Assembly (NCBI GenBank): GCA_037447655.1 | Contig: JBBHKE010003072.1 | Span: forward strand, 89,768 to 153,767 | Length of the DNA stretch: 64,000 bases | Direction of reading: 5' to 3' | Source of the DNA: Zygnema cylindricum | Lineage: Eukaryota; Streptophyta; Zygnematophyceae; Zygnematales; Zygnemataceae | In this document: positions 19,915 to 64,000 of the stretch, piece after piece | Numbering within the stretch: position 1 is the first letter of the stretch | How the letters are laid out: each line of letters begins with the position of its first letter | The notes under the pieces: generated by a model | What the model was told of the DNA's origin: nothing | Databases searched by the model: none | The model's input: only the letters and a program-made list of their open reading frames with translations | Position numbers and translations under genes: made by a program

Positions 19915-20187
19915 ATTTTGGTATTGATAATTTGAATACAAAAAATGGCGCGTCAAAATATGGTCAAACTATGGTCATTGAATAGCAAGAGGAGAAACCT
20001 GTACTTTTGGTGGGCCGGTGGGTTGGGGGTCGGTTGTCTGTTGGTGGCCAGCCGGTTGACCTGCATCCATCCAACTAGCATGGCAGGCGGCACATGGCAT
20101 GTACGACGTGCACGCTTGTGATCGTTTGTACAACGTAGATCTTTTTTCTCCTTTTCATGTGTACCAATGGTAATCAATGGTAATCAT

Positions 20188-43720: not shown

Positions 43721-44117
43721 CACCGTGAATCACTATTAGCGTCAATAACTCTAATTGCGGTACCCCGTTTTTTTACCCAAATTCTCAAATAGAATAAATA
43801 AAAACCCTTTAAAAAACAAATTAGAGTAAATGATTTCCCTCAAAACCCCCAAATTCCCAAATAGCGTAAATAACGCTAGTTGTTTCATTACGCTATCTAT
43901 TTCATTACGTTAATAGCGATTCACGGTATAGCGTTCATAACGCTATTTCGGCGCCCCCAAATTTTGACCAAAATTATGAAATATAATTATTAATTCTATT
44001 ATGGAAAACTCCAAATTCCCAATTATAGTCAATGAATTCCTTGAAAATCCCCAAATTCCCAACTAGTATTTTTTTTGAACCCTAATTATTTCATAACGCT
44101 AATAGCGATTCACGGTG
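43721..44117. mobile_element. TA-site MITE (397 bp), Tc1/mariner-like by target
   Basis: Ends CACCGTGAATCACTATTAGC and, inverted, CACCGTGAATCGCTATTAGC, flanked by TA on both sides (43719-43720; 44118-44119). An additional internal end (CGATTCACGGTATAGCG) at 43918 suggests a nested or rearranged copy. No transposase. Confidence 0.75.
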
Positions 44118-44124
44118 TACACCG

Positions 44125-44380
44125 TGTATCAGAGGTCGCAAACGGTCAACCGAAACCGTGACTGACCGTTAACCAATCGCACGCGCCAGCTGCGGAACGG
44201 ATTCGGTGGCCAAATTTGGGGTATGGATTCGTGCTTGACCCACGGTTACGATTGGTCAAGCAAAAAACGAAAAAAAAATGAAATTTTGCACTTTTTTTTT
44301 CCAACATTTTTGTCATTTGTACTTTTGGTATCGTGAAAGTACGTGACATCATGGTTAGCGTCGCAAATCTGACATTGTAC
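44125..44380. repeat. Dispersed repeat R3, copy 2
   Basis: Inverted relative of 17163-17433 (AGAGGTCGCAAACGGTCAAC ... GTTAGCGTCGCAAATCTGAC). Confidence 0.6.
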
Positions 44381-44383
44381 TAA

Positions 44384-45174
44384 GGGCGTGTTCCCATGTA
44401 ACCGAAACTTTGAAAAGTTACTTTGGATTTTAGCGCAGATTTTACGGTGTACTTTTCAAAGTGTGCCAATGTCAATCGTTACTTGCGCCTTCATTACTTC
44501 GAATATGTGACAGTTGTAGACGTCGCCAATATCTTGCGACGCTTGTAGACGTCAACAAACTGTGGACATTTGTACACTACAACAAGCTCTTGACATACTG
44601 CGGACATTTGTCGACGCCAACGAGCTCCTGACATTTGTAGACGCCCAGACGTGGACAACATAAGCAACCGCATACGTCTACAAATAGGTTGTACCGTACT
44701 GTAGTGAAAGTGTCACTGAATGTTCAGCGTGACATTGTAGACGTCGGGCTTTCTTTCACTGCCATGTGCGTAATTCTGGCGGATCGTGTCCGACTGCTTG
44801 TCCGTACAACCAAACAAACAAACGAATTGTTTGCAAACGGACAAACAACTTTATTTTCGTGTACTCTCCCTACTGCAAAAAAAAAATTGAAAACGTTTGA
44901 CGCGTGCAAACCAGGTTTTCTATTCGTCAATAGGTTAGTATTTTGATTAAAATCAGATCGCGATTTGATTCCAGTGCAAGTGTGAAGATGAGCTGGAAAT
45001 TGGGGGCGATGATAATAACGCCAAATTGTCGTACCTTCCAAGTTCCAAGATGAAGCAAAATGTACTTGTGTTTTTCCCCATTTTTCGTACGGCGTAATAT
45101 TTTCTCGTTGGAAGTCCCATTTTATGTGAAAACGACGTAAAAAAACCCTTACTTGAACACATGGGAACACGCCC
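44384..45174. mobile_element. PIF/Harbinger-type MITE, 791 bp
   Basis: Perfect 16-bp inverted ends GGGCGTGTTCCCATGT and ACATGGGAACACGCCC, flanked by TAA on both sides (44381-44383; 45175-45177), the 3-bp target of PIF/Harbinger. Open frames show no transposase or Myb-like partner. Confidence 0.88.
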
Positions 45175-45200
45175 TAACTCTATTCATTTGGCGAATCTTA

Positions 45201-47117
45201 GGGCGTGTCCCCATGTAACCGAAACTTTGGAATGTTACTTAAGATTTTAGCGCCGATTTTACGGTGTACTTTCAAAGTGTGCCAATGTCAATCGTTACTT
45301 GTGCGTTCATTACTTCGAATTTGTGACAATTGTAGACGTCTACAAAATGTGTGACAGTCTACGAAACGAAATGTAGACGAGTACGAAACTACGAAACTTC
45401 CTAAAAACGACAACAGTTGTAGACGTCGAGGTTTTTGAGACGTTGTAGATGTTTAGGGTTGTGTGACATAGCGAAGTCATGCTACCATGTGACGTCATCA
45501 GTGCGTACATTTTTCGCCATGGCTTCCCGATTTCGTTTTCTTATCTTTTATCATTCGATATGCCATCAAACTTAGACCAAAAATATTAAAAAAAATATAT
45601 ATATATATATACCTTTCATTTGATACTATTATTGTTGCATCTTGTGTACATAAGAGAGAAAGAGGAGTGGTCGAGTGAGAAAGAGGGGGAGAGACGAGGA
45701 CGCCGTAAAATTATGCAAAGGACCCATGAAGGAAAGTGGAGGTCCGCGACCCCTGCAATTTTTTTTCCGTACATGTTTGTCATTTTCCTTTGTGCATGCA
45801 TGTAATAACATCTCCTACCTCTCAGAAAAACCCATTACTTCAATCAATTTCAACCATACATTCCACACATTGGAAAATACACATCCACATTGGAAAGCAC
45901 TCACATAAGGATAAACTTTAAATTAGAAGAAGCTTCTGACCACATAACATTAGCTTGGTCTCTTGCCCTCGTGGCTCAACCCTTCTTATTAAAGTGTTTT
46001 CCTCTACTCTCCACTCTTAATAATTCTATCTCTTAACTACTAAAACACTACTTAGTTTGCAAGAGATTTCAATGCCAAAATGCCAATGCTCCAATTTGGT
46101 TTTAACCGCTCAGGACCAAGATCAGTCAGAATTTTCACAAACTTTTTCAAAAGAAAAAATGTTTTCTCTTAGACTTCACTAATTATTCATCATCGCCCTG
46201 GACTCGCCAGGCCAGAGTCAACGTTAGAGTCAACGCTCCGTTGAATAGGTTTTACCTGGGCCAATCATTGATTAGCAAGGACTCAAACTGACCAATGCAC
46301 AAACGTGCGAAATCTCTTACTAACTACGTAGCATTTCTAACCAATCAAACACTATGTTTCATTACGTAACATTTACATGCAAAAGTGCGCGCCAAACGAA
46401 ACGCGACTTCGCACGAACGTGCGTCGCAAATTTCGCACGCGAAACTTCCTACGAAATTCCATAAACTGAAAGTGACGTTTCGTACTAAAAATTGTACGAA
46501 ACGAACCATCTTGCGTACCAAACGTTTCATTGTAACTTTATGAAACGTGCAGGCGAAATTTCGGTACTAATTTGACCCTTAACCCGTTTCAATGATACCC
46601 GCTTGTTATTTTGACCCGGCGCTGTCGCCTAAATACACCTATCGATATAACTTTTGATATATAACTCCAAATCGCATGATTCTTTCGCGGACGTCTACCA
46701 AATTTAGTACTCTATAATCATATTACCTAAATAGCCCATTTACAAACAAGTTCGATCCGCTATTAATGTTACAATGCGCGTGACGAGGAGTGAAAAAAAT
46801 AGCGTGTACTTTCCTTCGTGCAATTTTTTTCCAAAACGTTTGACACGTACAATCCAAGTTTTCTATTCGTCTATAGGGTAGTATTTTGATCAAAATCAGG
46901 TCGCGGTTTGATTCCAGTGCAAGTGTGAAGATGAGCTGAAAGTGGGTCGCGATGATAATAAAGCCAAATTGCCGTACAATATAAGTTCCCAGAAGACGCA
47001 AAATGTACTTGTATTTTTGCCCATTTTTCGTACGACGTAATATTTTCTCGTTACAAGTCCCATTTTATGTAAAAACGATGGAAAAAAACCCTTACTTGAA
47101 CACATGGGGACACGACC
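45201..47117. mobile_element. Longer PIF/Harbinger derivative, 1917 bp
   Basis: Ends GGGCGTGTCCCCATGT and ACATGGGGACACGACC (one mismatch), flanked by TTA (45198-45200; 47118-47120). About 330 bp at each end match the 791-bp element next to it. The middle 1.2 kb (45530-46770) is absent from that copy and has no recognised transposase, so both look like deletion derivatives of a larger parent. Confidence 0.85.
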
Positions 47118-47308
47118 TTACAGTTGAAATTCAAGTATTTTCTAGGTCTAGAGATTGTAAAATAAAAGGCAAAAAGGAGACAGTGACAGCCTGCCTCTAA
47201 CTCTTCTCTCAAGTCCCAACACTTATCGCAGTCACTGAAGACTAGAGGAGGAGTTGGAGCCATGGCTGCCTAGACTGTCCTCTTAAGGCCAATCTTGATA
47301 AAGTTGCA

Positions 47309-47391
47309 AAAGGTTTGACGGACCCAGGAATTGAACCTCGTACCTGACGTCCGCCAGAGTAGTAGTTAGATTTATCCTATAAGTCTAGGAC
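47309..47391 (-). other. Antisense tRNA-like (Pol III-like) unit, LTR D
   Basis: Minus strand: an A-box-like stretch CTAGACTTATAGGATAAA, an 8-bp stem TGGCGGAC/GTCCGTCA (one G-U) around GAGGTTCAATTCC (B-box-like), then CTTTTG as a T4 signal within 15 nt. Confidence 0.6.
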
Positions 47392-47539
47392 AAGTGTTAG
47401 GGTATATGGAGTTCGCTAAATATTTATATAGATACACGCGGACTAGTTTGTTTAACGGGAGGGAGATACGTAGTGCATAGATACAGTTTTAGATAGTACG
47501 TAGTACGGTTATATGTATTATATGAAACAGATATCGCGC

Positions 47540-47563
47540 ATTTGTTTCGACCGCGAAACAAAT
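47540..47563. promoter_or_regulatory. LTR palindrome ATTTGTTTCG-N4-CGAAACAAAT
   Basis: Perfect 10-bp inverted repeat. Related forms occur in A (48153-48174; 53617-53641), B (55871-55888; 61219-61237) and C (61753-61776). The position inside the LTRs, upstream of the paired GTAC arms, suggests a transcription-factor site; not tested. Confidence 0.7.
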
Positions 47564-47732
47564 ACGGCGCGTCTATTTTCAACAGATAAAAATATATCAG
47601 GTTTTGATCGGACGGCCAAGATAGGCGCCGCGATCGTGGAATGTGTACTTTTGGCGATTTACGGACAACGCCATGTCAACGAACACGTGGTGCGTCAACA
47701 TTGGATTGCGGCAACTCCAGAGATTACGGGAA

Positions 47733-48767
47733 TGTAGATATTAAAGGTTATTTTAGTATTTTCTAGGTTTTGTAAAATGCAGAAAAGAAGCAGAGGCAGT
47801 CTGCCTCTAACTCCTCTCTCCAGCTCCCACACTTGTCGTAGTCACTAAAAGTTGGAGAGGGAGATAGAGCCATGGCCGCCTATGCTATCCCGATAGGGAC
47901 AGATTTTAGGTTAGTAGATTTTACCAAAATAAACTTGGCGGGCCCAAGATTTGAACCTGAAACATGCCGTCCGCCAAAGTAGTTGGTAGCCTGTAGCCTT
48001 AGCCAACTAGTCTAAACCAGAGATTTATGATATAGGGTTTGATAGTTATTTAAATGTTAACACGTCGGCTATCTTCATTCAACGCGATATTTAGACATAG
48101 ATATAGTTTGTAATGTACGGCGTACGGCACATCCGAAACGGATACCACGCATTTTGTTTCGAAGGCGAAACGAATATTGCGCAAGTATTTATGACGACCA
48201 CAATTGTAATCCGGCTTAATCGGACGGCCACGAAGCATGCCGAGAAAGCGCAATAGATTTTTTGCGGTTTGCGGTTGACGTCACATCAATCGTCACGTGG
48301 CACAATCACATTGGATTACGGCATCTCCAGGGATTCTAGGAACAAATCCAAAAATGACATGTGTCGACTTTTTGGCCATGTCGTACAATGGCCGTACATA
48401 AAGTACAACGGCACCTGTACCTTTATGTACGATACAGTATTATGATTGGTGCCGTACTTCAGTAGATAGAGTTTTAGAGAGAGATAGGACTTAGAAAAAT
48501 TTGATAGATTGGACCCTCTCTTCTAGAGAGCTTCTGTACAAAAGGTCAACTTTGACCCTTCATAACTTACCGCTCAGGGGAGCAAATTCAGAGATTCTTT
48601 TTGCTGTAGACTCAAAGGAGTCTTCCCTTTACATGGGTAAATTTGGTTAGAGTTTTTGTGTGCCAAGGTGGCAGTTATTCTTGCTGAAACACAAAGGGGT
48701 CTGGGTTATCCTAGAGGCTTCGTGTGAGCTACCTACTCTGAGGTCCTATGGAGGTCTCAGAGTTGCA
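47733..48767 (+). repeat. 5' LTR of element A
   Basis: It starts TGTAGATATTAAAGG and ends CAGAGTTGCA. It carries the antisense tRNA-like unit (47926-48015), palindrome (48153-48174), paired GTACATAAAGTAC / GTACCTTTATGTAC arms (48397-48432), an ATTGG (inverted CCAAT) at 48445 and a CTCTCT/AGAGAG inverted repeat near 48516. Confidence 0.95.
47926..48015 (-). other. Antisense tRNA-like unit, element A 5' LTR
   Basis: Minus strand: A-box-like TAGACTAGTTGG followed by CTAAGGC, stem TTGGCGG/CCGCCAA enclosing CAGGTTCAAATCTTG (B-box-like in a T-arm-like hairpin), then TTTATTTTGG with a T4 run. Confidence 0.65.
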
Positions 48768-48782
48768 GGTTATGGACCCACC
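48768..48782 (+). other. Primer-binding site of element A
   Basis: GGTTATGGACCCACC directly follows the LTR. It is complementary, with one mismatch, to the anticodon arm of plant initiator tRNA-Met rather than to a tRNA 3' end. It contains the gag ATG (48772). Confidence 0.75.
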
Positions 48783-49860
48783 ATCTAGGGTGCCCATATT
48801 CAATGGAGCTAGCTTCATATAATAGGAAAGTATGATGACAGGAGCTCTATGTGAGAACGTTTTTGGGGAATAGTGAGTGGACTGGTGAGGCGTCCATCCA
48901 GTCTTGGGATACCTCTAGGGTTTATTGGAGGCAAATTCAATAGAGATGCAGATCCATCTTCTATGGAGGAGACAAAAGAAAGAGAGGTGGTGGACAAAGG
49001 AAAGGAGAAGGAGACGGTCACACCAATAGCAACCGGTTCGGCATTCATGTCACCTATTCCGAGGAACGAGGAGAATGTTATCGATACCTGGGACTACAAA
49101 AATATGGCGGCTAAGCACTTCATACTCCGCCATCTTACTCAAGGGCTTGCTTCTCCCCATTTGCAGGTTGAGAGGGCATCCGATATTTGGGTGGCTCTCA
49201 TAGAGAAGTACCGACCTGGAAAGATTTAGCAACAACAGTTGGCTGATCAGAAAATTAACGAGTATGTATACAAAGGGGGGAAGATGTTAGATTTTTCCAA
49301 TGAGCTTGCTACACTTTTTATGGAACTAGAGAGTGTTGGAAAAGTATTTAGTGAAAGGGAAAAGGTTAACTGTTTACTGATGAAGTTACCCGATGAGTTT
49401 GAGAACATCGTCAACTGTGTGCAGTACTTGGCGGACTCAAGGTGGATTTGGAATTCAGTGGTAGGGATGATTCTTGTTCAGGAGAATACAATTGAGATCC
49501 GAAGGGGAAGAAAGAGTGGGCAAGCTTTCGCAGTTGGGACTGATTGGAGATATAATGATTCCAGAAAACAGATTGGAAATTATCGAGGGGAGGGGCAGAA
49601 AATTCAGACCGAGGAGTTCGGACCAAGGACTCCCAAGGGTTTGTGCCATTTTTGTAAGAAACCTGGGCACTATATGGCTGAATGCACTAAGTTAACCGAG
49701 CTTCGGTTAAAGGAGGGGCAGACCGGTGGACCCTTGAGAGGAAAGAAAAAGGCCCCTGTGACACAGGTACATGAGGCCGAATCCGAGAACGAGGATGATG
49801 AACTCCTATTAGATGAGGAGTTGGAAGCGAAAAACGAGGTCGAAATTCCACGAAAGCAGA
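48772..49860 (+). pseudogene. gag of element A, disrupted
   Basis: It begins at the ATG within the PBS (MDPPSRVPIFNGASFI), then two stops where the sister elements read YW, and a 1-nt frameshift near 48853. After VRRPSSLGIPLGFIGGKF it runs open until TAG at 49228, where element B has CAG (Gln). Further on, YKGGKMLDFSNELA, MKLPDEFENIVNCVQ and a CCHC zinc knuckle CHFCKKPGHYMAEC at about 49640 for RNA binding. Gag would form the particle. Confidence 0.88.
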
Positions 49861-52800
49861 AATGTGCTTTCGATGGATTGAAAGGTGAAGCATGTTGGAT
49901 TGTAGATTCAGGTGCATCCATGCACATGTGTAAAGATAAACAACTGTTCACTAAGATAAGAAAGATTCCCACCGTAGAGATAGAGTACGGGGATGGGAGG
50001 ATAGTCACTAGTACTCTTCGAGGATCGGTAGATCTAAAAGTGTTAGTAGAAGGAAAGACATCTATAGTTACATTCTCCGATGTATTGTTTATTCTGGAGC
50101 TGAACAAAAACCTCATCTCTACGTCTGTATTAGATGATAAGGGTTTTGATACCAGCACTAGGAAAGGAGTCTTTACTGCTAGTTTTGAAAAGGAAGTTTA
50201 TTTCACTGCTGAAAAGGTTCCAAGGGATGTAACGAATGATTTTAAGCAATGTAAAGAAGAAACTTTATTATGTTGGTGTTCATGATATAATGTTGTGGCA
50301 TAAGAGGCTTGGGCAAGTGATAAGTTAAGGGAGATGAAAAAGATGGGAGTAGTGGAAGGGATTCAGTTTGGTGAAAGTGAGAATCTAAGTGATTGTAGTG
50401 GATGTGCTCAAGGTAAAGCACACAGGTTACCCTTCCCAAAAACGACCACTTATAAGGGAGAAAAGATTTTAGATTTAGTACAAACAGATATTTGGGGGCC
50501 GTCCAGAGTGCCATCACCCAGGGGGAAGAAATTTATGATGACTATCACCGATGATTGGTCTCGGTATTCCAGGGTGTATCTTTTGAAAAATAAGTTAGAG
50601 GCTTAGGATTGTTTTTAACAATATAAAGCATGGAGTGAAAAACTCCATGAAACCTCAATCGAGAGACTAAGGAGTGAGAATGGTGGAGAGTATACCTCTA
50701 ACCAGTTTGAGGATTTTCTGAGAGAAGATGGAGTGCAACACCAAAAGACAGTTCCTGAAAATCCTGAGCAGAATGGTGTAGCTGAAAGATTAAATAGAAC
50801 ACTGAGTGATAGTGCTAGAAGTATGTTGTCAGATAAGAAGATAGGAAAAAAGTTTTGGGCCGAAGCAATGAACTGTGCAAATTATCTCAAGAATAGAGTT
50901 CTTACTTCAACAGTAAAAGGCCAAACACCCTATGAAAGATGGACAGGCCGAAAACGAGGCATATCTCACTTAAAGGTTTTCGACAGTCAAGTATTCAATC
51001 AAGATACGGATCGGTCCAATTGGAAGCTAGATCCTAAAGGAAAATCGGGAAACTTATTAGGATATGATGAGGATTTCGGTAGTCAAGTGTTCAGTTTACA
51101 CACAGATCGGTCAAACTGGAAGTTAGACCCGAAAGGAAAACCAAGATATCAACTAGGATTTGATGAAGATGTAAAAGGATACAGAGTCTATGATCTCAAA
51201 AGAGAGGATATTATCCTAGTGAAGCATCTTGTGGTTATGGATGAAGGAAAATCTATAGATCCCTTTAAGCATACAAAGATAGTCAAAATCAGATTTGAGT
51301 CTGAAAATTCTGATGACTTTGAGCTTCCTAACTATTCAAGATTTCACGAAGATGATGATCTTGCAGGTACGGATCAGATCGAGAAGGACCCAAATGTGGA
51401 ACCTCTAGTATTAACTCCAACCGAAGCGGAAGACGTGGTGGAAATCGACCCGGAATGAAAGGATAGGGGAGAAGTAGAAACTGTTCGGAAGAATCCAAGA
51501 GAGCCATCTATTCCAGCAACCGAGTTTGAGGGAGGAAGAAGATGCAGCAAAAGACTGCAAGAGAGACAAGTTAACTATAAGGTAACCAAACTGTCTCACC
51601 CCGATGAACCTCAAACTTATAATGAGGCAATGACTTGTCCTGAAAGAAACCGGTGGACGACATCCATTAATGAGGAGATGACCTCAATTATGGCGGCCGA
51701 TACATAGGAATTGGTGGATTGTCCTCCTGACAAGAAGCGAATTGGGTGTTAGTGGGTATTTAAGCTGAAACTCTACCCGGATATCACCATTGAGCGCTAC
51801 AAGGCTCATTTAGTGGCGAAGGAATTTACCCAGAAAGAGGGAATTGACTACGGGGAGACTTTTGCTCCGGTCGTCAGGTTTCCTTGGGTTCGGATACTTC
51901 TCAGTATGGCGGCAGCAGAAGACATGGAAGTGCATCAGATGGACATCAAGACGGCCTTCCTACATGGAGAGTTGGAAGAGGAAATTTTATGCGATAGCCC
52001 GAAGGATTTGTGGTGTAAAGGGAGGAAAGCAAGGTATGCCGATTGATCAAATCTTCGTATGGGCTGAAACAGGCGCCTTGGCAATGGAACAAGAAGCTCG
52101 ATGAGTTTCTTACAGGTTTGGGATATTTTCGGATCAGCTCAGATCACTCAATTTATTTGTTTGGAGATGAGGAAGGAATTATTTTTATTGCAATTTATGT
52201 TGATGATTTGCTTGTTTTAACTAAATCTATAGATAAAATAAATAAGTTGAAAAATGGTTTAAAAGGAAGATTTGAGATGAAGGATATGAGAGAAGCAAGG
52301 TATATTTTGGGAATTCAGCTAGAGAGAGACAGAGATAAAAAGATAATAAGATTAACTCAAAAAGAGGCCATTGGAAACATGTTAGAAAAATTCCAAATGG
52401 ACAAGGCTAATAGTTTACCACTCCTATGGAATTAAAGAAGGGAAGTGAGGGGAGTGAGAAAGAAGGATTTATAATCTTAGATAATGAGGTAGGCATGAAA
52501 GAGAAAATATTTATACAGACCATCCCTTATAGACAAGTAGTGGGCAACCTAATATATATCATGAATTGTACCCGTTCGGACATAGCCGCAGCTGTAGGCG
52601 TACTAAGTAGGAGTCTGAATGCTCCCAATAAGAAAGATAGGGAGGCAGCTAAGAGAGTCCTTAGATATCTCATAGGGACTAGGGATCTATGGTTGCATTT
52701 GGGTGGGAACAATATTGACATCACCACTTGGAGTGATGCCAGCTATGGGGATGCTCCTATGACGAGATGCACATATGGATATGTATTATATGTGGGTGAT

Positions 52801-53190
52801 GGGGCTTGCTTTTGGAGCAGCAAGCAGCAAAAGGTCATTGCTCAGTCCACCATGGAGGCTGAGTACATGGCTTCTTGCTCTGCTGTAAAAGAATTAATAT
52901 GGGTCAAGTCTTTGCTTGGTGAGCTTGGTCATCTTAAGAGTGGTGTCCAAAAAGTGTTTTGTGATAATTAGGCTGCCATTGCCATTTCTGCCAATCCTAA
53001 ACATCACTTTAAAGCCAAACACATGGACATTAGGCTTAGCTTTGTTAGGGAGAAAGTAGAAAACAAGATAATCGGTTTGGAGTATAAACCAGATAGTGAA
53101 ATGGTAGCAGATATGATGACCAAACCTGTTCCTTCCCCTAAACTAATTTTCTGCCGGGAGAAGTGTGGTCTTAAAATAAAGAGTGACTAG
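49861..53190 (+). pseudogene. pol of element A (protease-integrase-RT-RNase H), disrupted
   Basis: Protease CWIVDSGASMHMCKD at about 49890. Integrase zone with CSGCAQGKAHRLPFP and DIWGP...TITDDWSRYSRVY, then QNGVAERLNRTLSDSARSML. A locally duplicated segment around 50990-51170 repeats DRSNWKLDPKGK. RT: GIDYGETFAPVVRF, MDIKTAFLHGEL, and active site YVDDLL at about 52200. RNase H: TWSDASYGDAPMTRCTYGYV, QSTMEAEYMASCSAVKEL. Stops include 50604, 50619, 51456, 51704, 51749 and TAG at 52969 where Gln is expected. Stop codon at 53188 abuts the PPT. Confidence 0.9.
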
Positions 53191-53203
53191 AAAATAAGGG
53201 GAG

Positions 53204-54220
53204 TGTAGAAATAAAAAGGTTATTTTAGTATTTTCTAGGTTTTGTAAAATGCAGAAAAGAAGTAGAGGCAGTCTGCCTCTAACTCCTCTCTCTAGCTCTC
53301 ACACTTATCGTAGTCACTGAAAGTTGGAGAGGGAGATAGAGCCATGGCCGCCTATGCTATCCCGATGGGGACAAAAATTAGGTTAGTAGATTTTACCAAA
53401 ATAAACTTGGCGGGCTCAATATTTGAACCTGAAACCTGCCGTCTGCCAGAGTAGCCTGTAGCCTTAGCCAACTAGTCTAAACTAAAGATACATGATATAG
53501 GGTTTGATAGTTATTTAAATGTTAACATGTCGGCTATCTTCATTCAACGCAATATTTAGACATAGATACAGTTTGTAATGTACGGCGTACGGCACATCCG
53601 AAACGGATACCGCACATTTTGTTTCGATGGCGAAACAAATATTGCGCAAGTATTTATGACGACCACGATTGTAATCCGGCTTAATCGGACAGCCACCAAG
53701 CATGCCGAGATCGCGCAATAGGTTTTTGGTGGTTTGCGGTCGACGTCACATCAATCGCCACTTGGCACAATCACATTGGATTATGGAATCTCCGAGGATT
53801 CCAGGAACGAATCCAAAAATGGCATATGTCGACTTTTTGGCCATATCGTACAATGGCCGTACATAAAGTACAACGGCACCTGTACCTTTATGTACGATAC
53901 ACTATTATGATTGGTGCCGTACTTCAGTAGATAGAGTTTTAGAGAGAGATAAGACTTAGAAAAATTTGATTGATTGGACCCTCTCTCCTAGAGAGCTTCT
54001 GTACAAAAGGTTAACTTTGACCCTTCATAACTTACTGCTCGGGGGAGCAAATTCAAAGATTCTTTTTGCTATAGACTCAAGGGAGTACGAGTAAATTTGG
54101 TTAGTGTTTTTGTGTGCCAACGTGGCAGTTATTCTTGCTGAAACACAAAGGGGTCTGGGTATCCTAGAGGCTTCGTGTGAGCTGCCTACTCTGAGGTCCT
54201 ATGGAGGTCTCACAGTTGCA
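53204..54220 (+). repeat. 3' LTR of element A
   Basis: It starts TGTAGAAATAAAAAGG and ends CACAGTTGCA. Similar throughout to the 5' LTR with many point differences and small deletions, so the insertion is not recent. Antisense tRNA-like unit at 53398-53480, with its stem partly decayed (GGCAGAC opposite GCCCGCC). Confidence 0.95.
53398..53480 (-). other. Antisense tRNA-like unit, element A 3' LTR
   Basis: Minus strand: TTAGACTAGTTGGCTAAGGC, then CAGGTTCAAATATTG as B-box-like region, then TTTATTTTGG. Less intact stem than in the 5' LTR. Confidence 0.55.
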
Positions 54221-54225
54221 GGGAA

Positions 54226-54632
54226 CAAATTCGGATATGACATGTGTTGACATTTCGGCCATGTATTAGAATGGTCATATAAAAAGTACACGGAAACATG
54301 TACTTTTTTGTACGACACAGTAATGTGATTGGTGCGGTACGTTAGTAGATAGAGTTTAGAGAGAGATATGATTTAGAAAATTAAGTAGGTAGTGTGTCTC
54401 TCTGAGAGAGCTCATGTACAAAAGTTTAACTTTGATCCTCCATAACTTACTGCCCTGGGGAGCAAATTCAGAGATTCTTTTTGCTGCGTACTCACAAAGT
54501 CCAGGTTACACAAGGGTGTAGTCAGTCAGAGTTTTTGCTTGCCAAGGCGGCTACATTTATTAAGGAAAGTCAAAGTGGGTGAATGTGTCCAAAGTCTCAT
54601 ATTCTAACTCTGCATTCTGTGGGGGAACTAAG
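54226..54632 (+). mobile_element. Copia LTR D, right part, cut by element C
   Basis: It resumes after the duplicated GGGAA and matches 4745-5300 and 16.6-17.1 kb (GTCAAAGTGGG, CATTCTGTGGGGGAAC). It stops where the inverted LTR C begins; the pentamer CTAAG just before it would be C's target site. Confidence 0.8.
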
Positions 54633-55278
54633 TGAAACTCTATGTGCTCCATTGCCCATAGAAATCGCATAATCAAAGGAAGCTAATCTAGATAGTGCCA
54701 TCTCTAAGTTGATATAAACCCAAATGACTGACCCCTTGACAATCATAAACCCATTATAGCTTCACCCTTGTGAAATAAGATTTTTTGTATGCTCAGTTCC
54801 ACCACAGAATGCAAAGTTATAATATGAGTTTTAGACACATTCACCCAATTTGACTTTCCCTTAGAAATGCATAGAGTCTGGCAAGCAAATAATTTGACCA
54901 ACTACACCCATGTAAAGCCTAGACTCCCCTGAGTCCGCAACAAAAAGAATCATTGAAAATGGTCAATTAAATTGATTGTTATGGCTGGCCAAAGTTTGCC
55001 TTTTATACAAGATGCTCTCTGTGAGAGGCGACTACCTACCCAAAAAATTCTAAGTCATATTCTCTCTCTAAGACCCTAACTACTGACGTACGGCACCAAT
55101 CACTTTAATGTACCGTACAAAAAAATACAGGTGCCGATGTACTTTATGTACGACCATCGTACGATATGGCCGAAATGTCAACACATTTGATATCCCTATT
55201 TGTTTGCGTAATCTCCGGAGTCGCCGCAATCCAATGTTGACGTGCCCCGTGTCACTTGACATGGAGATGGCCGTAAAA
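54633..55278 (-). mobile_element. Copia LTR C (3' LTR), outer part, split by element B
   Basis: Inverted C/D-type LTR starting (on plus) TGAAACTCTATGTGCTCC. It is interrupted by element B at TAAAA (55274-55278) and continues at 61655. Confidence 0.85.
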
Positions 55279-56294
55279 TGAAATTACGTGTCCTCCATTG
55301 GACTACAGAATACAGGAAGCCTCTAGATAGTATTTAACTAACCCACTTTAAGCCACGACCACTGCTGCCCAAAAAGGCAAACTGCAATTTGACTGCACCC
55401 TTGTGCACCCTGGACTCCTTTGAGTCCGAAGCAAAAAGAATCACTGAAAACAGCCAACCAGATGATAAGTTATGAGGCACTAAAAATGCCAATTTGTACA
55501 AACCCTCAAAGGGAGAGGTGACTACCTACCAAAATTTTCTAAGTCTTGATCCCTTCTAATAACTTCTATCTACTGAAGTACGGACCAATCAAATTACTGT
55601 ACTCTACCAAAAGGTACTACTGCCGGTGTACCTTTTGTACGGCCTATGTACGACAAGGCTATTAAGTGGACGCGTGTCCGCTTTTTACTTTTCCGTACAT
55701 TCCTCAGAATTCCTATGACCGAATGTCATCTCTCCACGTGGCTCCAGGTCATGCCACGTCACAAAACGCCAAGGTGACCACTCCGGGATTTCGGCGATGA
55801 CGTGCGCCGTCGGATTCGTAATGAGACGTAATCGTAGCCGTTATAATTACTTGCGAGATATTTGTTTCGCTGTCGAACAAATGCGAGGTATTCATTCTGA
55901 AATGATGTCGTACTAAAACTGTATCTATGCACGCCGTATCTAGTTTTAGTTAAATGGATTTCTTACTTCATAAATGTATATATATCTATCACACTCTATA
56001 ATATTTAGCATTGGTCCTAGTCTAGTAGGATAAAGCTGACCACTATCGGCCAATTTGACGAACCGCAGGTACCGGGTTCAAATCCCGGGTCCGTCAGGAC
56101 TATTTTTAGTAACCTTCTAAAAATAACTGCCTGTTGAAATAAGGCAGCCATGGATCAACCACCCTCTCTTTCCTTCAGTGACTACAACAAGTATGGGGGA
56201 TAGAGAGAGGAGGTGGAGGCAGGCTGTCTGTCCTTTTTCTTTTTCCTAACATATTAAACCTAGAAAATACTATAGAAATCTATGAATTTCAACA
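55279..56294 (-). repeat. 3' LTR of element B
   Basis: Element-sense start TGTTGAAATTCATAG, end ACGTAATTTCA. It contains the tRNA-like unit 56014-56107 on the opposite strand and the ATTTGTTTCG...CGAACAAAT palindrome at 55871-55888. Confidence 0.95.
56014..56107 (+). other. Antisense tRNA-like unit, element B 3' LTR
   Basis: Plus strand (antisense to B): GTCCTAGTCTAGTAGGATAA, TTTGACGAACC, hairpin CCGGGTTCAAATCCCGG (perfect T-arm-like stem with B box GGTTCAAATCC), GTCCGTCAGGAC, then TTTTT at 56103-56107. Outer GTCCT (56014) can pair with AGGAC (56096). Confidence 0.68.
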
Positions 56295-56307
56295 CTCCCC
56301 TTATTTT

Positions 56308-59300
56308 CTAGTCTAATTTTAATTTTTCTTTCAACCCGCATTTCTCCCGAAAATATTTTAATATAGGAGAGGACTCAGGTTTGGTCATCATGTCAGCCAC
56401 CATTTCTTCATCAGGTCTACACACAAGATTTAAAATTTTATTTTCAACTTTTACTCTTACGAAGCTTAATCTTATGTCCATATGTTTTGCTTTGAAATAG
56501 TGTTTTGGATTGGCTGCGATTGCGATTGCAGCTTGGTCATCGCAAAAGATTTCATGACCTCCCTCCTTCATATATCCCAGTTCTTGCAACAATGACTTCA
56601 CCCACATTAGTTCTTTTACAGCAGAACAAGACGCCATATACTCAGCCTCCATAGTAGACTGAGCAACCACCTTTTGTTGCTTACTGCTCCAACAGCAAGC
56701 TCCTTCCCCCACATACAAAACATATCCAGAAGTGCATCTTCTCATAGGTGCATCCCCACAACTGGCATCAATCGAAGTGGTGATATCAGTGTGCTCCCCT
56801 CCCAAATGCAACCATAATTCTCTAGTTCCAACCAGATATCTCATGACTCTCTTGGCTGCCTCACGGTCTCTCTTCCTAGGATCATTAAGACTCCTACTGG
56901 GTACTCCAACTGTTGCCGCTATGTCCGGCCTGGTACAGTTCATAAAATAAATTAAACTTCCTACGACCTGTCTATAAGGGATAGACTTCATAAACACTCT
57001 CTCCTCTGGACTCATCTGATTGTCTAAGATCATCACTCCTCTTTCTACACTCCCATCACTTACTTTTTTCAAGTCCATGGGAGTGGTACAACTGTTAGCA
57101 TTTTCCATCTAGAATTTCTCAAGCATATAACCTATTACTTCTTTCTGAGTAAGTCTGATAATCTTCTTCCCCCTATCTCTCTCCATTTGGATCCCCAAAA
57201 TATATTTTGCCTCCCCTAAATCCTTCATATTAAATCTGCCCCTAAGATCTTTCTTTAGCCTATTGATATTCTCCAAAGACTTACTTAACACAAGCAGATC
57301 ATCCACATAAATTGCAATAAAAATGACACCATTCTCATCTTTAAACATATAGATAGAATGGTCAGAGCTGATCCGGATGTATCCCAGATCGATGAGAAAC
57401 TCATCTAGTTTTTATTCCACTGTTGGGGAGCTTCTTTCAGTCCACATAAGGACTTTATGAGCCTGCAGACTTTGCTCTCTTCTCCTTCTTCCACAAACCC
57501 CTCGGGTTGCCTTATAAAAATTTCTTCCTGTAACTCACCATTAAGAAAAGCAGTCTTAATGTCCATCTGGTGTATTTCTATGTCTTCCGCTGCCGCCAGA
57601 CTGAGGAGAATCCTTACTGATGGGAACCGAACAACTGGAGGAAAGGTCTCCTCATAGTCAATCCCCTCTTTTTGGGTGAACCCCTTCGCTACCAATCGAG
57701 CCTTATACCTCTCAATTGTATTATCAGGGTTTAGTTTTAGTTTAAATACCCATTTACATCCAATAGGTTTTCTGTCTGGAGGAAAATCTGGTAGTTCCAA
57801 AGTATATGCTTCCATGATAAAAGCCATCTCGTCATTTATGGCTCTAATCGATCTTTCTTTCTCTGGACTATTCACTGCCTCTAAGTAAGATTGAGGCTCA
57901 TCTGGATGAGATAACTTAGCTACCTTATGAGCAGCTTGTTTTTACTGTATCCTTTTGCTGCTCCTCTTTCCTCCCTGAAACTACGAAGCTGGAATAGATG
58001 GAAGTCTTGGATTTCTTCTCACTGTCTTATCGGCTCCCCTGTCCATGGAAACCGGTTCTTATCCCGCTTCTTCTATCTCCTCAAAATCCATAGGAGTGTG
58101 TGAGGTTTCCGGTGAGTCTCCTGTATCTTAGATCTCTCCTGAATCTGTAATCATGGTTTCACTCATGTCCCTTTCGGGAACGACCGAGTTCTTCTCACTT
58201 TCGGACTCAAATCTGATCTTTATCTTCTTTGTATATTTGAATGGGTCAAATGACTTCCCTTTATCCATGACAACTAAGTGTTTGACCAAAATGATATCTT
58301 TCTTTGCTAAGTCATAGACTCTATATCCCTTAACATCCTCATCATATCCCACAAAGTATCCAAGTTTTCCCTTAGCATCCAGTTTCCAGTTTTTCCTATC
58401 CGTGTCAAGATTGTAAACTTGGCTACCAAATACTTTAAGGTGTGAGATATCTGGTTTCCTTCCAACCCATCTCTCATAAGGTGTCACTCCCTTTACAGCT
58501 AAGGTAAGGACTCTATTCTTAATGTAGTTGGCACAGTTCATTGATTCTGCCCAAAATCTCTTTCCTATTTTCTTGTCTGCCAACATACTACGCACACTAT
58601 CTCCTAGTGTTCGATTCAACCTCTCAGCTACCCCATTTTGTTCGGGGTTATATGGTACAGTTTTTTGGTGCTGCACTCCCTCATCTCTCAGATATTCCTC
58701 AAACTCGTTAGAGGTATATTCCCCCCTATTATCACTCCTTATCCTCTTAATGGGGGTTTCATGCAACTTCTCACTCCAAGCTTTATATTCTTTGAAGTAA
58801 GTTGATGCTTCAGACTTTGTTTTCAGAAAGTAGACTCTAGAGTATCTAGACCAGTCATCAGTAATTGTCATCATAAACCTCTTTCCTCCAACCGAAGGTA
58901 CTTTTGCAGGTCCCCAAATATCTGTGTGGACCAAATCTAACACTTTCTCACCTCTATATGTGGCGGCTTTGGGAAAGGGAAGTATGTGAGCCTTACCTTG
59001 AGCACAACCACTACAATCATCCATCATTTCATTATCCTCAAACTGAATTCCATCTACTACCCCAAGCTTTTTCATTTCCCTCAACCTATCAAAATGCACA
59101 TGCCCCAACAGTTTATGCCAAATCATCACCTTAGGAACACCAACATAATAAGCATTCTTCTTTTCATTACTCAGGTTAAGCCTAAACATTCCTTGGCTAC
59201 CCTTATCTGCTGTGAAGTAAACTTCATTCCCATACTTAGCTGTAAAGACTTCCTTTCTGGTGAAAGTATCAAACTCTTTGTCATCTAACACAGATGTAGA

Positions 59301-59519
59301 GACAAGATTTTTACTCAGCTGAGGAATGTAAAGTACATCTGAGAATGTAAGTATAGAAGTCTTACCCTCCACTAAGACTTTTAGATCTACTGATGCCACT
59401 AGATCTGTAGTAACCACTCTCCCATCCCCATACTCTATCTCTACAGTAGGAATCTTTCTTAGCTTAGTGAAGAGTTCTTTATCACGACACATATGCATGG
59501 ATGCACTTGAGTCGATGAT
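56308..59519 (-). pseudogene. pol of element B (protease-integrase-RT-RNase H), disrupted
   Basis: A stop separates it from gag. Protease reads WIIDSSASMHMC, i.e. D-S-S-A instead of D-S-G-A. A long open stretch 59498-58128 covers the GAG-pre-integrase and integrase parts (LLGHVHFDRLREMKKLGVVD, CSGCAQGKAHILPFPK, TITDDWSRYSRVYFLKTK, NPEQNGVAERLNRTLGDSVR). Stops follow near 58127 and 58060. RT: KLNPDNTIERYKARLVAKGF, MDIKTAFLNGELQEEIFIRQ, then a 1-nt deletion near 57405, YVDDLLVLSK, and TAG at 57109 where A has CAA. RNase H: SGYVLYVGEGACCWSSKQQK, MEAEYMASCSAVKELMW, ending in a stop next to the PPT. Confidence 0.92.
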
Positions 59520-60632
59520 CCATTATTCCTGTGGAGCTTCCCGAATTGCTCCAAGGGCACACTTCTGCCTCCGAGGGATCTCCTTCTCCTCCAGACTCTC
59601 GTCAAGAAGAAGTTCCCCATCCTCCTCAGAGGACTCATCCTCGGTTTCTCCTGACACTTTTCTAACCACAAGTGCCTTTTTCTTCCCTCCGGAAGAACCT
59701 CCTCCACGGTTCTCTTGGAGCCTCAGCTCTGATAGCTTGACACAATCTGCAATAAAGTGTCCCGCCTTTTTGCAATAATGACAAAGACCCTTTGGGGGCC
59801 TCTGTCCCCCAGAATGATCTCTTTCCCCTCTATAAGGTTTCTTCGGGTCCTTCCCCCATCGGTCCCCTCTTGCTGCTAGAGCTTGAATGCTCTTTCCTCC
59901 TCTCCTAATCTCCATTGTGTTTTCCTGCACAAGTATCATTCTGACTACTGTGTTCCATTTCCATGAACTATCAGGCATTCCCTGTACTCGGTACACTATG
60001 TTTTCGAACTCATCTGGTAATTTCATGATAAGGGTGTTAACTTTCATTTTTATTGTACCTGTCCACCCGGCACTTTCCATTTCCATATACAAACATGAAA
60101 GATCATTACAGTAATCTAACATCTTTCCTCCTTTGTAAGTGTAACTCAATAGCTTTTGCTCAGCCAACTGGAGCTCCTGAATATTTCCAGCTCTATAAAT
60201 CTCCACTAAACTCTCCCACAACTCCTCGGCCTTGTAAATGTGAAGATGAGGAGTGGCCAAACCTTGAGTGAGGTGCCTCAGAATAAAGTTCTTGGCAGCC
60301 ATGTTTACATCCTCCCACATTTGAGTATCGTTCTCCACGGTCTTCACGGTCGCCACTCCCGATACTGTGGCAATAGGAGTGAGGGGTGTCTTCTTCCCTT
60401 TCTCCTTTTCGGACACACTCTTGTCCCCATCATCTGCCTCCTTCGCTGAGGCAGCCGTCGTTGCAGAAAACCTTACTCCCCCAAATCCTGGTGGAGTTCC
60501 CGAAGGTGGACGTTTCACTTATCCACTGACGATAACCCAGTATCGTTTTTCACACAAAGATCTCATCATCATGGCTTCCCAATAGATGAACGCAGATCCA
60601 TTGAAGGTGGGCACCCTAGAGGGTGGGCCCAT
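59520..60632 (-). pseudogene. gag of element B, two stops from intact
   Basis: Starts at the ATG inside the PBS (MGPPSRVPTFNGSAFIYWEA), has one in-frame TAA at 60519-60521 after IVSG, then is open for 331 codons: GTPPGFGGVRFS, FILRHLTQGLATPHLHIYKA, YTYKGGKMLDYCNDLSCLYM, MKLPDEFENIVYRVQGM, and the CCHC knuckle CHYCKKAGHFIADC. It ends with a TAA just before the protease. Confidence 0.9.
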
Positions 60633-60636
60633 AACC
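60622..60636 (-). other. Primer-binding site of element B (initiator tRNA-Met anticodon arm)
   Basis: Element sense GGTTATGGGCCCACC directly after the LTR. It is fully complementary to the anticodon stem-loop GGUGGGCCCAUAACC of plant initiator tRNA-Met as I know it. The gag ATG (60632-60630) lies opposite the CAU anticodon. Confidence 0.8.
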
Positions 60637-61654
60637 TGAAATTTTGTGTCCTCCATTGGACTACAGAATACAGGAAGCCTCTAGATAGTATTTCACTAAC
60701 CCACTTTAAGCCACGACCTCTGCTGCCCGTGAAGGCAAACTGACAATTTGACTGCACCCCTATGCATCCTGGACACCCCTGAGTCCGTAGCAAAAAGAAT
60801 CACTGAAAACGGCCAACCAACCGATAAGTTATGAGGCACTAAAAATGCCAATTTGTACAAACTCTCAAAGGGAGAGGTGACTACCTACCAAAATTTTCTA
60901 AGTCTTGATCCCTTCTAATAACTTCTATCTACTGAAGTACGGACCAATCAAATTACTGTACCGTACCAAAAGGTACTACTGACGGTGTACCTTTTGTACG
61001 GCCTATGTACGACAAGGCTATTAAGTGGACGCGTGTCTGCTTTTTACTTTTCCGTACATTCCTCAGAATTCCTATGACGGAATGTCATCTCTCCACGTGG
61101 CTCCAGGTCATGCCATGTCACAAAACGCCAAGGTGATCACTCCGGGATTTCGGCGATGACGCGCGCCGTCGGATTCGTAATGAGACGTAATCGTAGCCGT
61201 TATAATTACTTGCGAGATATTTGTTTCGCTATTCAAACAAATGCGAGGTATTCATTCTGAAATGATGTCGTACTAAAACTGTATCTATGCATGCCGTATC
61301 TAGTTTTAGTTAAATAGATTTCTTACTTCCTAAATGTATATATATCTATCACACTCTATAGCATTTAGCATTGGTCCTAGTCTAGTAAGATAAAGCTGAC
61401 CGCTATCGGCCAACTTGACGAACCGCAGGTACCGGGTTCAAATCCTGAGTCCGTTAGGACTATTTTTAGTAACCTACTAAAAATAACTGCCTGTTGAACT
61501 AAGGCAGCCATGGATCAACCACCCTCTCTATCCTTCAGTGACTACAACAAGTATGGTGGCTAGAGAGAGGAGGTGGAGGCAAGCTGTCTGTCCTTTTTCT
61601 TTTTCCCAACATATTAAACCTAGAAAATACTATAGAAATCTATGAATTTCAACA
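60637..61654 (-). repeat. 5' LTR of element B
   Basis: Near copy of 55279-56294 with scattered substitutions, ending AAAATTTCA at the PBS. Carries the tRNA-like unit at 61374-61467 and palindrome at 61219-61237. Confidence 0.95.
61374..61467 (+). other. Antisense tRNA-like unit, element B 5' LTR
   Basis: As in the 3' LTR: TCCTAGTCTAGTAAGATAA, TTGACGAACC, CCGGGTTCAAATCCTGAG, GTCCGTTAGGAC, TTTTT. A few substitutions weaken the hairpin. Confidence 0.6.
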
Positions 61655-62201
61655 TAAAACGCCAAAATTACATATCCCGCGATCGCGGCGACTATCGTGG
61701 CCGTCCGATCAAATCCGGTTATATTTTTAGCCGTTGAAAATAACCGCGTGGTATTTGTTTCACGTTCGAAACAAATGCGCGATATCCGTTTTATAGAATA
61801 CATAAAAACGTACTTTATACTATCTATAACTGTAACTATGCACTACGTTTATATTTACCGTTAAATGAACTAGTGTACTTCTAACTATTTATATACAAAT
61901 CAAACCCCATATGTGCTAGCACTAGTCCTAGGCTTAACGGACAAAGCTACCGTCAATCGGAATCTTGACGGACGGTAGGTTCCAGGTTTAATTCTTGGAT
62001 CCGTCAATATTCATTTTAGTAAACCTACCATATATCTACACCTGTCTCTTTGGAGAGCTTAAGCAGCCATGGCTCTAGCTCCCTTTCTAGCCGTTAGTGA
62101 CTACAACTAGTGTGGGGGCTTGGAGATGGGAGTCACAGGCAGACTGCCTCTACGCTTTTTCTATCCTAAATAAAGACCTAGAAAATACTCAAATATCAAC
62201 A
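61655..62201 (-). mobile_element. Copia LTR C (3' LTR), inner part
   Basis: It continues LTR C after element B and ends AAATATCAACA beside the PPT (CTCCCCTTATTTTCTAGTCT on plus). Contains the palindrome ATTTGTTTC-N6-GAAACAAAT at 61753-61776. Confidence 0.85.
61925..62017 (+). other. Antisense tRNA-like unit, LTR C
   Basis: GTCCTAGGCTTAACGGACAA, an 8-bp perfect stem TTGACGGA (61965-61972) / TCCGTCAA (62000-62007) around CAGGTTTAATTCTTG, then TTTT at 62014-62017. Confidence 0.65.
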
Positions 62202-62730
62202 CTCCCCTTATTTTCTAGTCTACTTCCTTTCAATTCTTACAAACATTCATTTCTTTTTTTTTTCTTTTCCTTGTCTTTTTATAAAACTTTAAGATAACAC
62301 ACCCATATTTAAAAAGGTCCATTAAATGAGTTGAAGTAAACATTCCATCTTGCTTATCATACATTTTATTTAGCATCTCACTTTTCATAAATCCAAGCAA
62401 ATTTTCAAAGCTCCCCTTTCTTTTCCTCTCCCTCTCTTTCCACCAAAGTTCCGATAAGGTTTACCTTTGTCTTTCTTCCTCTCATCACGCTTCCGCTCGT
62501 CACCACCGTTCCTCTCATCACGCTTCCGCCAATCACCACCAGCTATAAATGCATTCACCCTGTCACTTCCCCTACGAAGCTCCAAAGTGCTTTACCTCAG
62601 AAGAATAATCCCCATGGTAAAGCTCCAAGTCCATGAGGAGCCATCCATTGCCTGCATACGACAAATGATGTTTTCGTACTCATTTGGTAGTTTGATGAGT
62701 AGTGTATTAAACTTCCTCTCCTCAGATTCT
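62202..62730 (-). pseudogene. Internal remnant of element C: gag piece joined to the 3' end
   Basis: After the PPT (minus strand) a short non-family tail, then a gag segment (KFNTLLIKLPNEYENIICRM; ELRRGSDRVNAFIAGGDWRK with a charged DERKRDERKK run). Protease, integrase, RT and RNase H are missing between gag and PPT, so C is either a large-deletion derivative or a gag-only form. Its right end is cut by LTR E at 62731. Confidence 0.75.
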
Positions 62731-63787
62731 TGTAGAAATTAATGGTCCATTTTAAGTATTTTCTAGGTCTAAATAGAAATATAGAAAGAAGCCGAGGCAT
62801 TCTACCTCTAACTTCTTTCTCCAACTCTCAAACTTGTCGCAGTCATTGAGAAATTGGAGACGGAGCTAGAGCCATGGCTACCTAGGCTATCCAGAGGTTT
62901 ATGGGAAATTTATATTAGTTAAGGTTTTATTTACTAAAAGAGGTATGTGCCGGCCACAGGATTTGATCCTGCTACCTACCGGCTGGCAGACTATAGTTAG
63001 CCGGTAGCCTTAGCCGTTAAGTCTAGAACAAATGTTACGTAGTATATGGTTTGATATTTATTTAAACATGAATACGTAGGATAAATCATTTAACTGTAAT
63101 TGTTTACGGGATACATAGATCCGGTAATGTATAAGTACGGATTACGGTACAGACAAGAAATCAATACCCCGCATTTACTTCTTTAATGAAACGAATACCG
63201 CACATGTATTTATTACGGCTACGATTAAAATTGAATTTAAACGGACGGCCGGAATTAGCGCCGAGATCGCGGAAGAAGATTTCGGCGGTGTGTGGCCATC
63301 GCCACATCGGATGACACGTGGCGAAATTACATTGGATCGTGGTATTTTCGGAGATTATGGCACCGAATCCGGATATGACACGTGTCGACATTTAGGCCAT
63401 GTCGTACAATGTCCGTACATAAAGTACACCGACATCGGTACTTTTGCGTACGGAACTGTAATCTGATTGGTTCCGTACATCTATATATTGAGTCTGTGAG
63501 AGAGATAAGACATAGAAAAATTAGGAGATAGGACCCTCTCTCCCAGAGAGCTTCTGTACAAAAGGTCAACTTTGACCCTCCATAACTTACTGCTCAGGGG
63601 AGCAAATTCAGAGATTTTTTTTGCTATCCACTCAGGGGAGTCTTACCTTCACAAGGGTGCACGTGGTTTGAGTTTTTGTCTGTCAGGGTGGCAGTTGTTT
63701 TTGCTGAAACACAAAGGGGTCAGGATTATCCTAGAGGCTTCTTGGAAGCTGTCCACTCTGAGGACTTATGGAGGTCTCAGAGTTTCA
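62731..63787 (+). repeat. 5' LTR of element E
   Basis: It starts TGTAGAAATTAATGG, ends CAGAGTTTCA; 1057 bp. A-type features: GTACATAAAGTAC arms at 63415, CTCTCTCCCAGAGAG at 63536, core TTTTTTTTGCTATCCACTC. Antisense tRNA-like unit at 62936-63027. The element continues beyond the window. Confidence 0.92.
62936..63027 (-). other. Antisense tRNA-like unit, LTR E
   Basis: Minus strand: TCTAGACTTAACGGCTAAGG, CAGGATCAAATCCTG (perfect T-arm-like hairpin with B-box variant GGATCAAATCC), GGCCGGCACATACC, then CTTTTAG. The outer stem is weaker than in A, C and D. Confidence 0.6.
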
Positions 63788-63802
63788 ATTTATGGGCCCA
63801 CC
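63788..63802 (+). other. Primer-binding site of element E
   Basis: ATTTATGGGCCCACC; two mismatches (first two bases) to the initiator tRNA-Met anticodon arm. gag ATG at 63792. Confidence 0.7.
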
Positions 63803-64000
63803 CTCTACGGTACCAATATTTAATGGAACTGGCTTCATATACTGGGAAGTTATGATGATAGGAGCTCTATGCGAAAAAAGGTTTTGGGGGATAGTGAGTG
63901 GACGGTTGGGGCGCCCATCAAGTCTTGGAATTCCTCCAGGGTTTGGAGGAAGCAGATTCACCAGGAAAGAGGATCCACCTTCAACAGAGGAAATAAAAGA
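63792..64000 (+). CDS. gag of element E, open to the window edge
   Basis: Open frame from the PBS ATG: MGPPSTVPIFNGTGFIYWEV, MMIGALCEKRFWGIVSGRLG, RPSSLGIPPGFGGSRFTRKE, without stops up to 64000. It shows what the broken 5' ends of gag in A and B looked like. As E has no visible lesion here it could be the youngest and possibly intact member of the nest; the rest is outside the window. Confidence 0.88.
   Translation, partial: MGPPSTVPIFNGTGFIYWEVMMIGALCEKRFWGIVSGRLGRPSSLGIPPGFGGSRFTRKEDPPSTEEIK

Follow-up and report, generated by a model that had tools for sequence, protein, structure and literature searches.

A nest of Ty1/copia elements sharing an antisense unit

We analyzed a stretch of 64,000 nucleotides of the Zygnema cylindricum genome (contig JBBHKE010003072.1 of assembly GCA_037447655.1, positions 89,768 to 153,767 of the forward strand; hereafter the window, whose own numbering is used throughout). 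Its last 17 kb are made of nested Ty1/copia retrotransposons, and the long terminal repeats (LTRs) of these elements share a tRNA-like unit in antisense, which is the subject of this analysis. Element A (47733-54220, forward strand, with LTRs at 47733-48767 and 53204-54220) lies in an LTR of element D and is bordered by the 5-bp target-site duplication (TSD) GGGAA. Element B (55279-61654, reverse strand, with LTRs at 55279-56294 and 60637-61654) lies in an LTR of element C, with the TSD TAAAA, and a fifth element, E, starts near 62730. LTR length is 1.02-1.04 kb in both A and B, and the two copies within an element are separated by a Kimura two-parameter distance of 0.065 for A and 0.048 for B (the distance and TSD of B were computed with an LTR start at 60638). 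The assignment to Ty1/copia follows from the integrase lying ahead of the reverse transcriptase, the copia-type gag, the LTRs, a primer-binding site (PBS), a polypurine tract and the 5-bp TSDs. In B, the Pfam matches are to the copia gag (Retrotran_gag_2), the integrase (rve) and RVT_2, and gag-pol is broken across several stop-to-stop frames. The sequence after the 5′ LTR opens with GGTTATGG(G/A)CCCA, with the PBS at 48768-48785 and 60615-60636. We read it as probably complementary to the anticodon arm of the initiator tRNA-Met, as in half-tRNA priming.

All seven LTR copies of the nest (A 5′ and 3′, B 5′ and 3′, C, D and E) carry the unit in their U3 (unique 3′) region, always antisense to the element. 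A segment resembling an A box comes first, followed by a stem that encloses a T-arm-like hairpin whose loop resembles a B box, and then by a TTTT run. An earlier note on this DNA had described this order in the same seven copies of five elements, and both direct reading and alignment bear it out. The A box and the B box are 50-57 nt apart, the B box being the loop of the T-arm-like hairpin, and the 3′ arm of the outer stem (up to 9 bp) directly adjoins the T stem. The order and spacing are those of a type-2 RNA polymerase III (Pol III) promoter in the seven copies, with an A box that is imperfect outside B. Some details of the earlier description need to be narrowed: the A-box-like segment is present in all copies, but among those of the window only B 3′ matches TRGYNNARNNGG in full, and the T-arm-like hairpin with its B box is likewise general, but its loop is decayed in C and its T stem in A 3′. 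The hairpin that had been called perfect in B is indeed so, with an intact 5-bp T-like stem in the B 3′ LTR.

In the A 5′ LTR the unit lies at about LTR position 199-287 (47931-48019, reverse strand), with the A box at 48003-48014, the outer stem pairing 47969-47977 with 47935-47943, the B box at 47948-47957 and TTTT at 47926-47929. The A 3′ copy (53403-53484, reverse strand; TTTT at 53398-53401) is 7 nt shorter. On the forward strand, the B 3′ unit (56013-56101) has its A box at 56018-56029, an outer stem of 56055-56063 with 56089-56097, its B box at 56075-56084 and a TTTTT run at 56103-56107; the B 5′ unit (61373-61461) has its B box from 61435; and the C unit (61924-62011) has its A box at 61929-61940, the decayed B box at 61985-61994 and TTTT at 62014-62017. 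The units of D (47311-47392; A box 47376-47387, B box 47328-47337, TTTT 47308-47311) and E (62943-63030; A box 63014-63025, B box 62960-62969, TTTT 62936-62939) are on the reverse strand.

A strict descriptor composed after the unit had been seen (B box GGWTCRANNC, at least 4 of 5 T-stem pairs and at least 6 of 7 outer-stem pairs) matched five of the seven window LTRs in antisense and none in sense, missing A 3′ and C, and gave 17 matches, both strands together, in 4000 dinucleotide-shuffled LTRs. A relaxed version also found C, but it matched 419 times in the 4000 shuffled LTRs. Along the window, the strict descriptor had no match in 1-44000 on either strand and five in 44001-64000, all of them within these LTRs.

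The unit across the genome

The genome (353 Mb in 2689 contigs) was searched with queries B, C, E, D, A and F, which gave 41, 41, 40, 40, 40 and 40 matches, in each case the best 40 or so of 2857-5009 first-look candidates. The LTR families in this genome are large. We took as loci 30 matches each of B, C and E, together with 20 of the 40 D matches as 106-nt pieces and 10 of the 40 F matches as 101-nt pieces; none of the 40 A matches was taken. The unit was found in at least six LTR subfamilies, which we label A to F, A to E being those of the window. The 90 loci and the window contain 118 unit places, repeats included, and 103 distinct unit sequences; this census counts units within LTRs, and most of the loci were retrieved with queries that contain the unit. 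Four loci (L001, L004, L031 and L061) lie inside the window, and the recounted totals allow for these repeats.

The long U3 hairpin described below gives a second handle on the same LTRs. It occurs at 110 different places, three of which are cut by the end of the locus, and the remaining 107 can be examined for the unit: 103 have one that BLAST recognizes, three are diverged (L005, L055 and L064), and in L043 the LTR is broken off ahead of the unit. A fairer sample consists of the LTR copies outside the window that did not themselves bring in their locus. There are 21 of these, three of them cut, and among the 18 examined, 14 have a unit by BLAST, three belong to family F and one is broken off. 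The TTTT near the end of the unit, also part of the earlier description, recurs in the 31-nt stretch at or behind that end in 101 of the 103 distinct sequences, compared with 17% of antisense LTR windows, a contrast softened by the non-independence of the copies, which go back to a few masters.

Fragments of LTRs of the same family also lie elsewhere in the window (16132-16911 and 19751-19918); they contain only the part downstream of the antisense unit.

Structure and conservation of the unit

Covariation was assessed in 35 of the 103 distinct sequences, selected for their diversity. The outer stem, the T stem and a third helix (24-28/52-56, which crosses the outer stem) are paired in 83.0% of cells, against 22-45% when the helices are slid, and they hold 32 cells with a two-sided change against 12.8 (sd 3.0) in shuffles. 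Five of the nine outer-stem pairs show two-sided changes, and one pair occurs as A-U, G-C and C-G. In a previous selection, of 38 from 73 rows, 84.4% of cells were paired and six of the nine outer-stem pairs had two-sided changes, and the number of two-sided pairs was reached by 18 of 500 shuffles. The covariation that the earlier note had asked for was found: two-sided changes support the outer stem in families A to E. The mismatches of the T stem, read in antisense, are G.U in 17 cases and A.C in 5, and lean towards the antisense strand. We also tried the full tRNA fold, with D, anticodon and T stems, as a general structure and rejected it, as 73% of cells are paired and there is no excess of two-sided pairs (331 of 500 shuffles as high). 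Among the families, C keeps this fold best.

The boxes are the better kept part of the unit. The 16 box-defining positions have a likeness of 0.75 between families A to E against 0.62 for the other 72 unit positions (permutation p 0.027), the B box foremost. Of 8 informative positions, the families match 7.2-7.8 in the B box and 5.2-7.8 in the A box (means for the latter of 6.8 in A, 5.7 in C, 5.2 in D and 5.9 in E), and the commonest loop letters of each of the five families fit GWTCRANNC.

A long hairpin on the sense strand of the same U3

Between the start of the LTR and the unit lies a hairpin that the earlier note did not mention, on the sense strand and longer than the unit stem. Its copies on the forward strand are at 47785-47900 in the A 5′ LTR (-46.7 kcal/mol, z -4.4), 53257-53372 in the A 3′ LTR (z -4.2), 47165-47285 in D (z -3.9) and 62780-62895 in E (z -2.3); those on the reverse strand are at 56128-56236 in the B 3′ LTR (z -1.7), 61487-61596 in the B 5′ LTR (z -0.7) and 62059-62175 in C (z -0.6).

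The alignment comprises 39 of 42 picked rows (L005, L042 and L048 were omitted), with the fold of the first row as structure. Its 35 pairs are formed in 87.1% of cells, compared with at most 47% when slid. There are 68 two-sided cells, against 27.1 (sd 5.0) in shuffles, and none of 500 shuffles is as high; 14 pairs are changed on both sides, a number that 59 of 500 shuffles reach. RNAalifold retains nine pairs, seven of them with a two-sided change, and the ratio of G.U to A.C mismatches read in sense is 106 to 77. The hairpin belongs to the best conserved portions of U3; its apical part is almost invariant, and its covariation is strong across families A to F. It matches no Rfam family at the gathering score; in L062 and L066, a weak match to MIR5185 (21.0 bits, gathering score 101.7) coincides with it or lies close by. 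The support for the long hairpin exceeds that for the tRNA-like stem, and the hairpin is likely to belong to the genomic RNA.

A proposed Pol III promoter and its alternatives

Our preferred, though tentative, reading of the unit is a tRNA-derived type-2 Pol III promoter kept in antisense in a copia lineage. It builds on the anatomy of the unit and its spread, on the covariation of the stem in A to E, on boxes that are more conserved than the other unit positions, and on the B box and TTTT that F retains under another fold. A tRNA, or a short interspersed nuclear element (SINE) with a tRNA head, would have landed in antisense in the U3 of a copia LTR ancestral to at least six subfamilies, all of which would have inherited it. 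The A and B boxes would be bound by TFIIIC, and Pol III would make an antisense RNA of some 90-110 nt ending ahead of the long U3 hairpin; in families A to E this RNA could fold an acceptor-like stem stacked on the T-arm. As to function, our likeliest guess, a conjecture, is that occupancy by TFIIIC and Pol III keeps the promoter region of U3 open, the short RNA being a by-product or a modest regulator.

Comparison with the tRNAs of the host offers some backing for such an origin. As probes on U3 we used the T-arms and D-arms of nine host tRNAs, namely eight of ten fetched (a second Gln and a second Arg were omitted) and the tRNA-Thr of the window. In antisense, families A, B, D, E and F have their best T-arm match at the B box, with 8, 0, 13, 34 and 2 of 300 shuffles as good; C has it elsewhere, with 241 of 300 shuffles as good. 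For the D-arms, the best match coincides with the A box in families A, C, E and F, and B and D have it at another place. The sense strand gives a lower best T-arm score in every family but C, where the strands tie, and its best D-arm score is lower in four families and equal in B. The best T-arm matches are to Gln, Phe or Arg depending on the family, so that no parent isotype can be named. The Rfam tRNA model (RF00005, gathering score 29) gives 18.3 bits in C (61931-61998), where it outlines a D-arm, a stem with an enlarged loop and a T-arm, and the mascRNA-menRNA model (RF01684, gathering score 42.5) gives 19.6 bits on the B 3′ unit (56057-56095), below its gathering score. With weak matches or none, neither Rfam nor ARAGORN proves a tRNA directly, and both were discarded for that purpose.

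Several results weigh against a promoter of this kind. The scan with tRNA finders that the earlier note had proposed came out negative: the best unit, at 18.3 bits, is far from the 45-74 bits of 63 scored host tRNA genes, and nothing scanned reached the tRNA gathering score. The A 5′ unit has no Rfam match, 16 other loci have no match to the Rfam tRNA at E up to 10, and ARAGORN, run on the window and on 119 loci, accepted none of the units. There is no 5′ acceptor strand in the usual place. None of the D-arm matches is significant alone (23-295 of 300 shuffles as good), and in D the best D-arm score is higher on the sense strand. RNAalifold retains only four pairs of the unit, the number of two-sided pairs in the 35-row set is unremarkable (207 of 500 shuffles as high), and the outer-stem mismatches, read in antisense, are A.C in 30 cases and G.U in 14. 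Conservation above the LTR background, expected in the earlier note, was not observed either: between families, the whole unit is at 0.67 against 0.64 for the rest of U3, with 151 of 387 windows as high, and a second comparison gave 0.69 against 0.66, with 92 of 365 windows as high. Plain sequence conservation is thereby ruled out as a sign of selection. The earlier expectation that the boxes would persist across copies held in that they are better kept than the rest of the unit, but a full GGWTCRANNC is found in just 76 of 123 unit rows of families A to E. Lastly, the A-E fold is missing from family F, where, according to an alignment and to folds of single copies, the outer stem and the T stem are gone and the B box sits inside another inverted repeat.

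Family F is informative in another respect. Its copies (L055:660-832, L005, L064 and L111-L120) have a unit that is invisible to BLAST, and the Rfam tRNA has no match in L055 or in ten F pieces. The B box and TTTT are nevertheless retained in 10 of the 13 copies (L005, L064 and L119 fail), a combination seen in 4 of 20000 shuffles of one F copy. As F keeps both under a different fold, the promoter boxes, and not the RNA fold, look like the constant part of the unit.

A first alternative, which we consider rather unlikely, is that a tRNA gene or tRNA-headed SINE landed in antisense in an ancestral LTR and has since been carried without function. A dead relic of this sort would sit well with a whole-unit identity about equal to that of the rest of U3, with ARAGORN taking no scanned copy for a tRNA, and with a D stem and an anticodon stem paired in 70% and 64% of cells within the tRNA fold. 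It accounts poorly for the two-sided changes in the outer stem, for box positions more alike than the other positions of the unit, and for the retention of the B box and TTTT in F where BLAST loses the unit.

We regard as slightly less probable still that the stem is a sense-strand RNA element which, with the long hairpin, belongs to the U3 of the genomic RNA and has a role, for instance, in packaging, in export or in forming the 3′ end; the resemblance to a tRNA would then be coincidental. The adjoining hairpin is strongly supported in sense, and the sense strand has the lower folding energy in A, B and E, as the antisense strand has in C and D. The excess of A.C among the outer-stem mismatches in antisense amounts to G.U in sense, and hence favors the sense strand. 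Against a sense element, the wobble of the T stem points to the antisense strand, the most frequent loop letters in each of the families A to E fit the B-box rule, TTTT comes after the unit in antisense, and F drops the stem while retaining the B box. Finally, an inverted repeat acting at the DNA level, with arms as facing sites for a dimeric transcription factor in a U3 enhancer, is improbable: the arms TTGACG and CGTCAA of B, C and D resemble W-box and TGACG sites, but E and A alter both arms in concert, away from these motifs, and the nested T stem covaries too.

Relation to known systems

The closest relatives of the proposed promoter are the Helenus elements (TRIMp3), terminal-repeat retrotransposons in miniature (TRIMs) of 311-1263 bp, non-coding, which have a tRNA-like sequence with A and B boxes in their LTRs; the presumed role of this promoter is to drive the template RNA (Kojima 2024, PMC10886601). 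Fungal Copia and Helenus share the primer type from the anticodon arm of the initiator tRNA-Met (PMC10886601). The window elements resemble them in the A- and B-box-like segments of the LTR, although no scanned copy passes a tRNA model, in the apparent PBS of the anticodon-loop type, in the tie to Copia, seen in the fungal families, and in the 5-bp TSDs. The differences are that the window elements have LTRs of about 1 kb, that A (47733-54220) and B (55279-61654) carry the remains of gag-pol and so are neither short nor non-coding, and that the unit is antisense in seven of seven LTRs, where Helenus has a sense promoter. In the text of PMC10886601, the terms "antisense", "opposite" and "reverse complement" are absent and "orientation" occurs once. 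The earlier claim of novelty survives in part: tRNA-derived sequence in LTRs was already known from Helenus TRIMs, but a limited literature search, which included parts of PMC10886601, PMC12786077 and PMC10853983, found no description of an antisense tRNA-like unit in a coding copia lineage. The antisense direction, the long LTRs and the coding lineage would be what is new relative to Helenus.

Other systems share single traits. Cassandra TRIMs likewise hold the promoter of a small-RNA gene within the LTR, but theirs derives from 5S rRNA and the elements are non-coding; a search for 5S rRNA in the window (40000-64000) found no match at E up to 5. In mascRNA and menRNA, which are 3′ processing products of long non-coding RNAs, an acceptor-like stem of 7 bp is also stacked directly on the T-arm and the middle part is reduced. 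SINEs derived from tRNAs have a tRNA-like head with A and B boxes, but with TTTT right behind the B box the transcript of a SINE would be cut short. In yeast, antisense RNA made from the sequence of Ty1 itself can restrain the element (PMC12786077); the passages in question name no Pol III unit.

If the unit is live, the large LTR families of one genome would amount to arrays of antisense Pol III units, and LTR promoters of small-RNA genes would no longer be confined to tiny non-coding TRIMs but would occur in a coding copia lineage as well, there with a promoter that faces away from making the RNA of the element itself. The family would then provide a system in which any role of TFIIIC sites in shielding LTRs from silencing, in guiding nesting or in producing a restraining antisense RNA could be tested. 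It is also a warning that LTRs can harbor tRNA-like segments that escape tRNA finders.

Nested insertions and other features of the window

Element A is inserted in D 346 bp upstream of the A box of D, and B in C 275 bp upstream of the A box of C. We identified 14 junctions, ten of which, from seven events, join the end of an LTR to the inside of another LTR; the other four (L017, L025, L026 and L032) are of other kinds. The insertion points are at 47733 and 61654 in the window and, in the loci, at L003 2063, L043 1193, L054 1818, L071 832 and 1888, and L087 1450. Four of the seven events are visible from one side only. The seven events fall at LTR positions 85, 153, 549, about 585, 611, 679 and 956, four of them at 549-679 and hence upstream of the antisense unit, a pattern that is only a lead, since queries covering about positions 50-400 hide breaks there and the interval was chosen afterwards. 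The integrase of yeast Ty1 is drawn to Pol III genes (PMC12786077), and by analogy the LTR could provide a Pol III landing pad of its own, with copia elements of this lineage inserting into a sister LTR some hundreds of base pairs upstream of its antisense unit. We consider this very unlikely; if it were true, host genes would be spared and nests like that of the window would be built.

A search against viral contigs gave no match. Upstream of the nest, an open frame at 40822-41487 has a match to RVT_1 and is perhaps a fragment of a reverse transcriptase of the non-LTR type.

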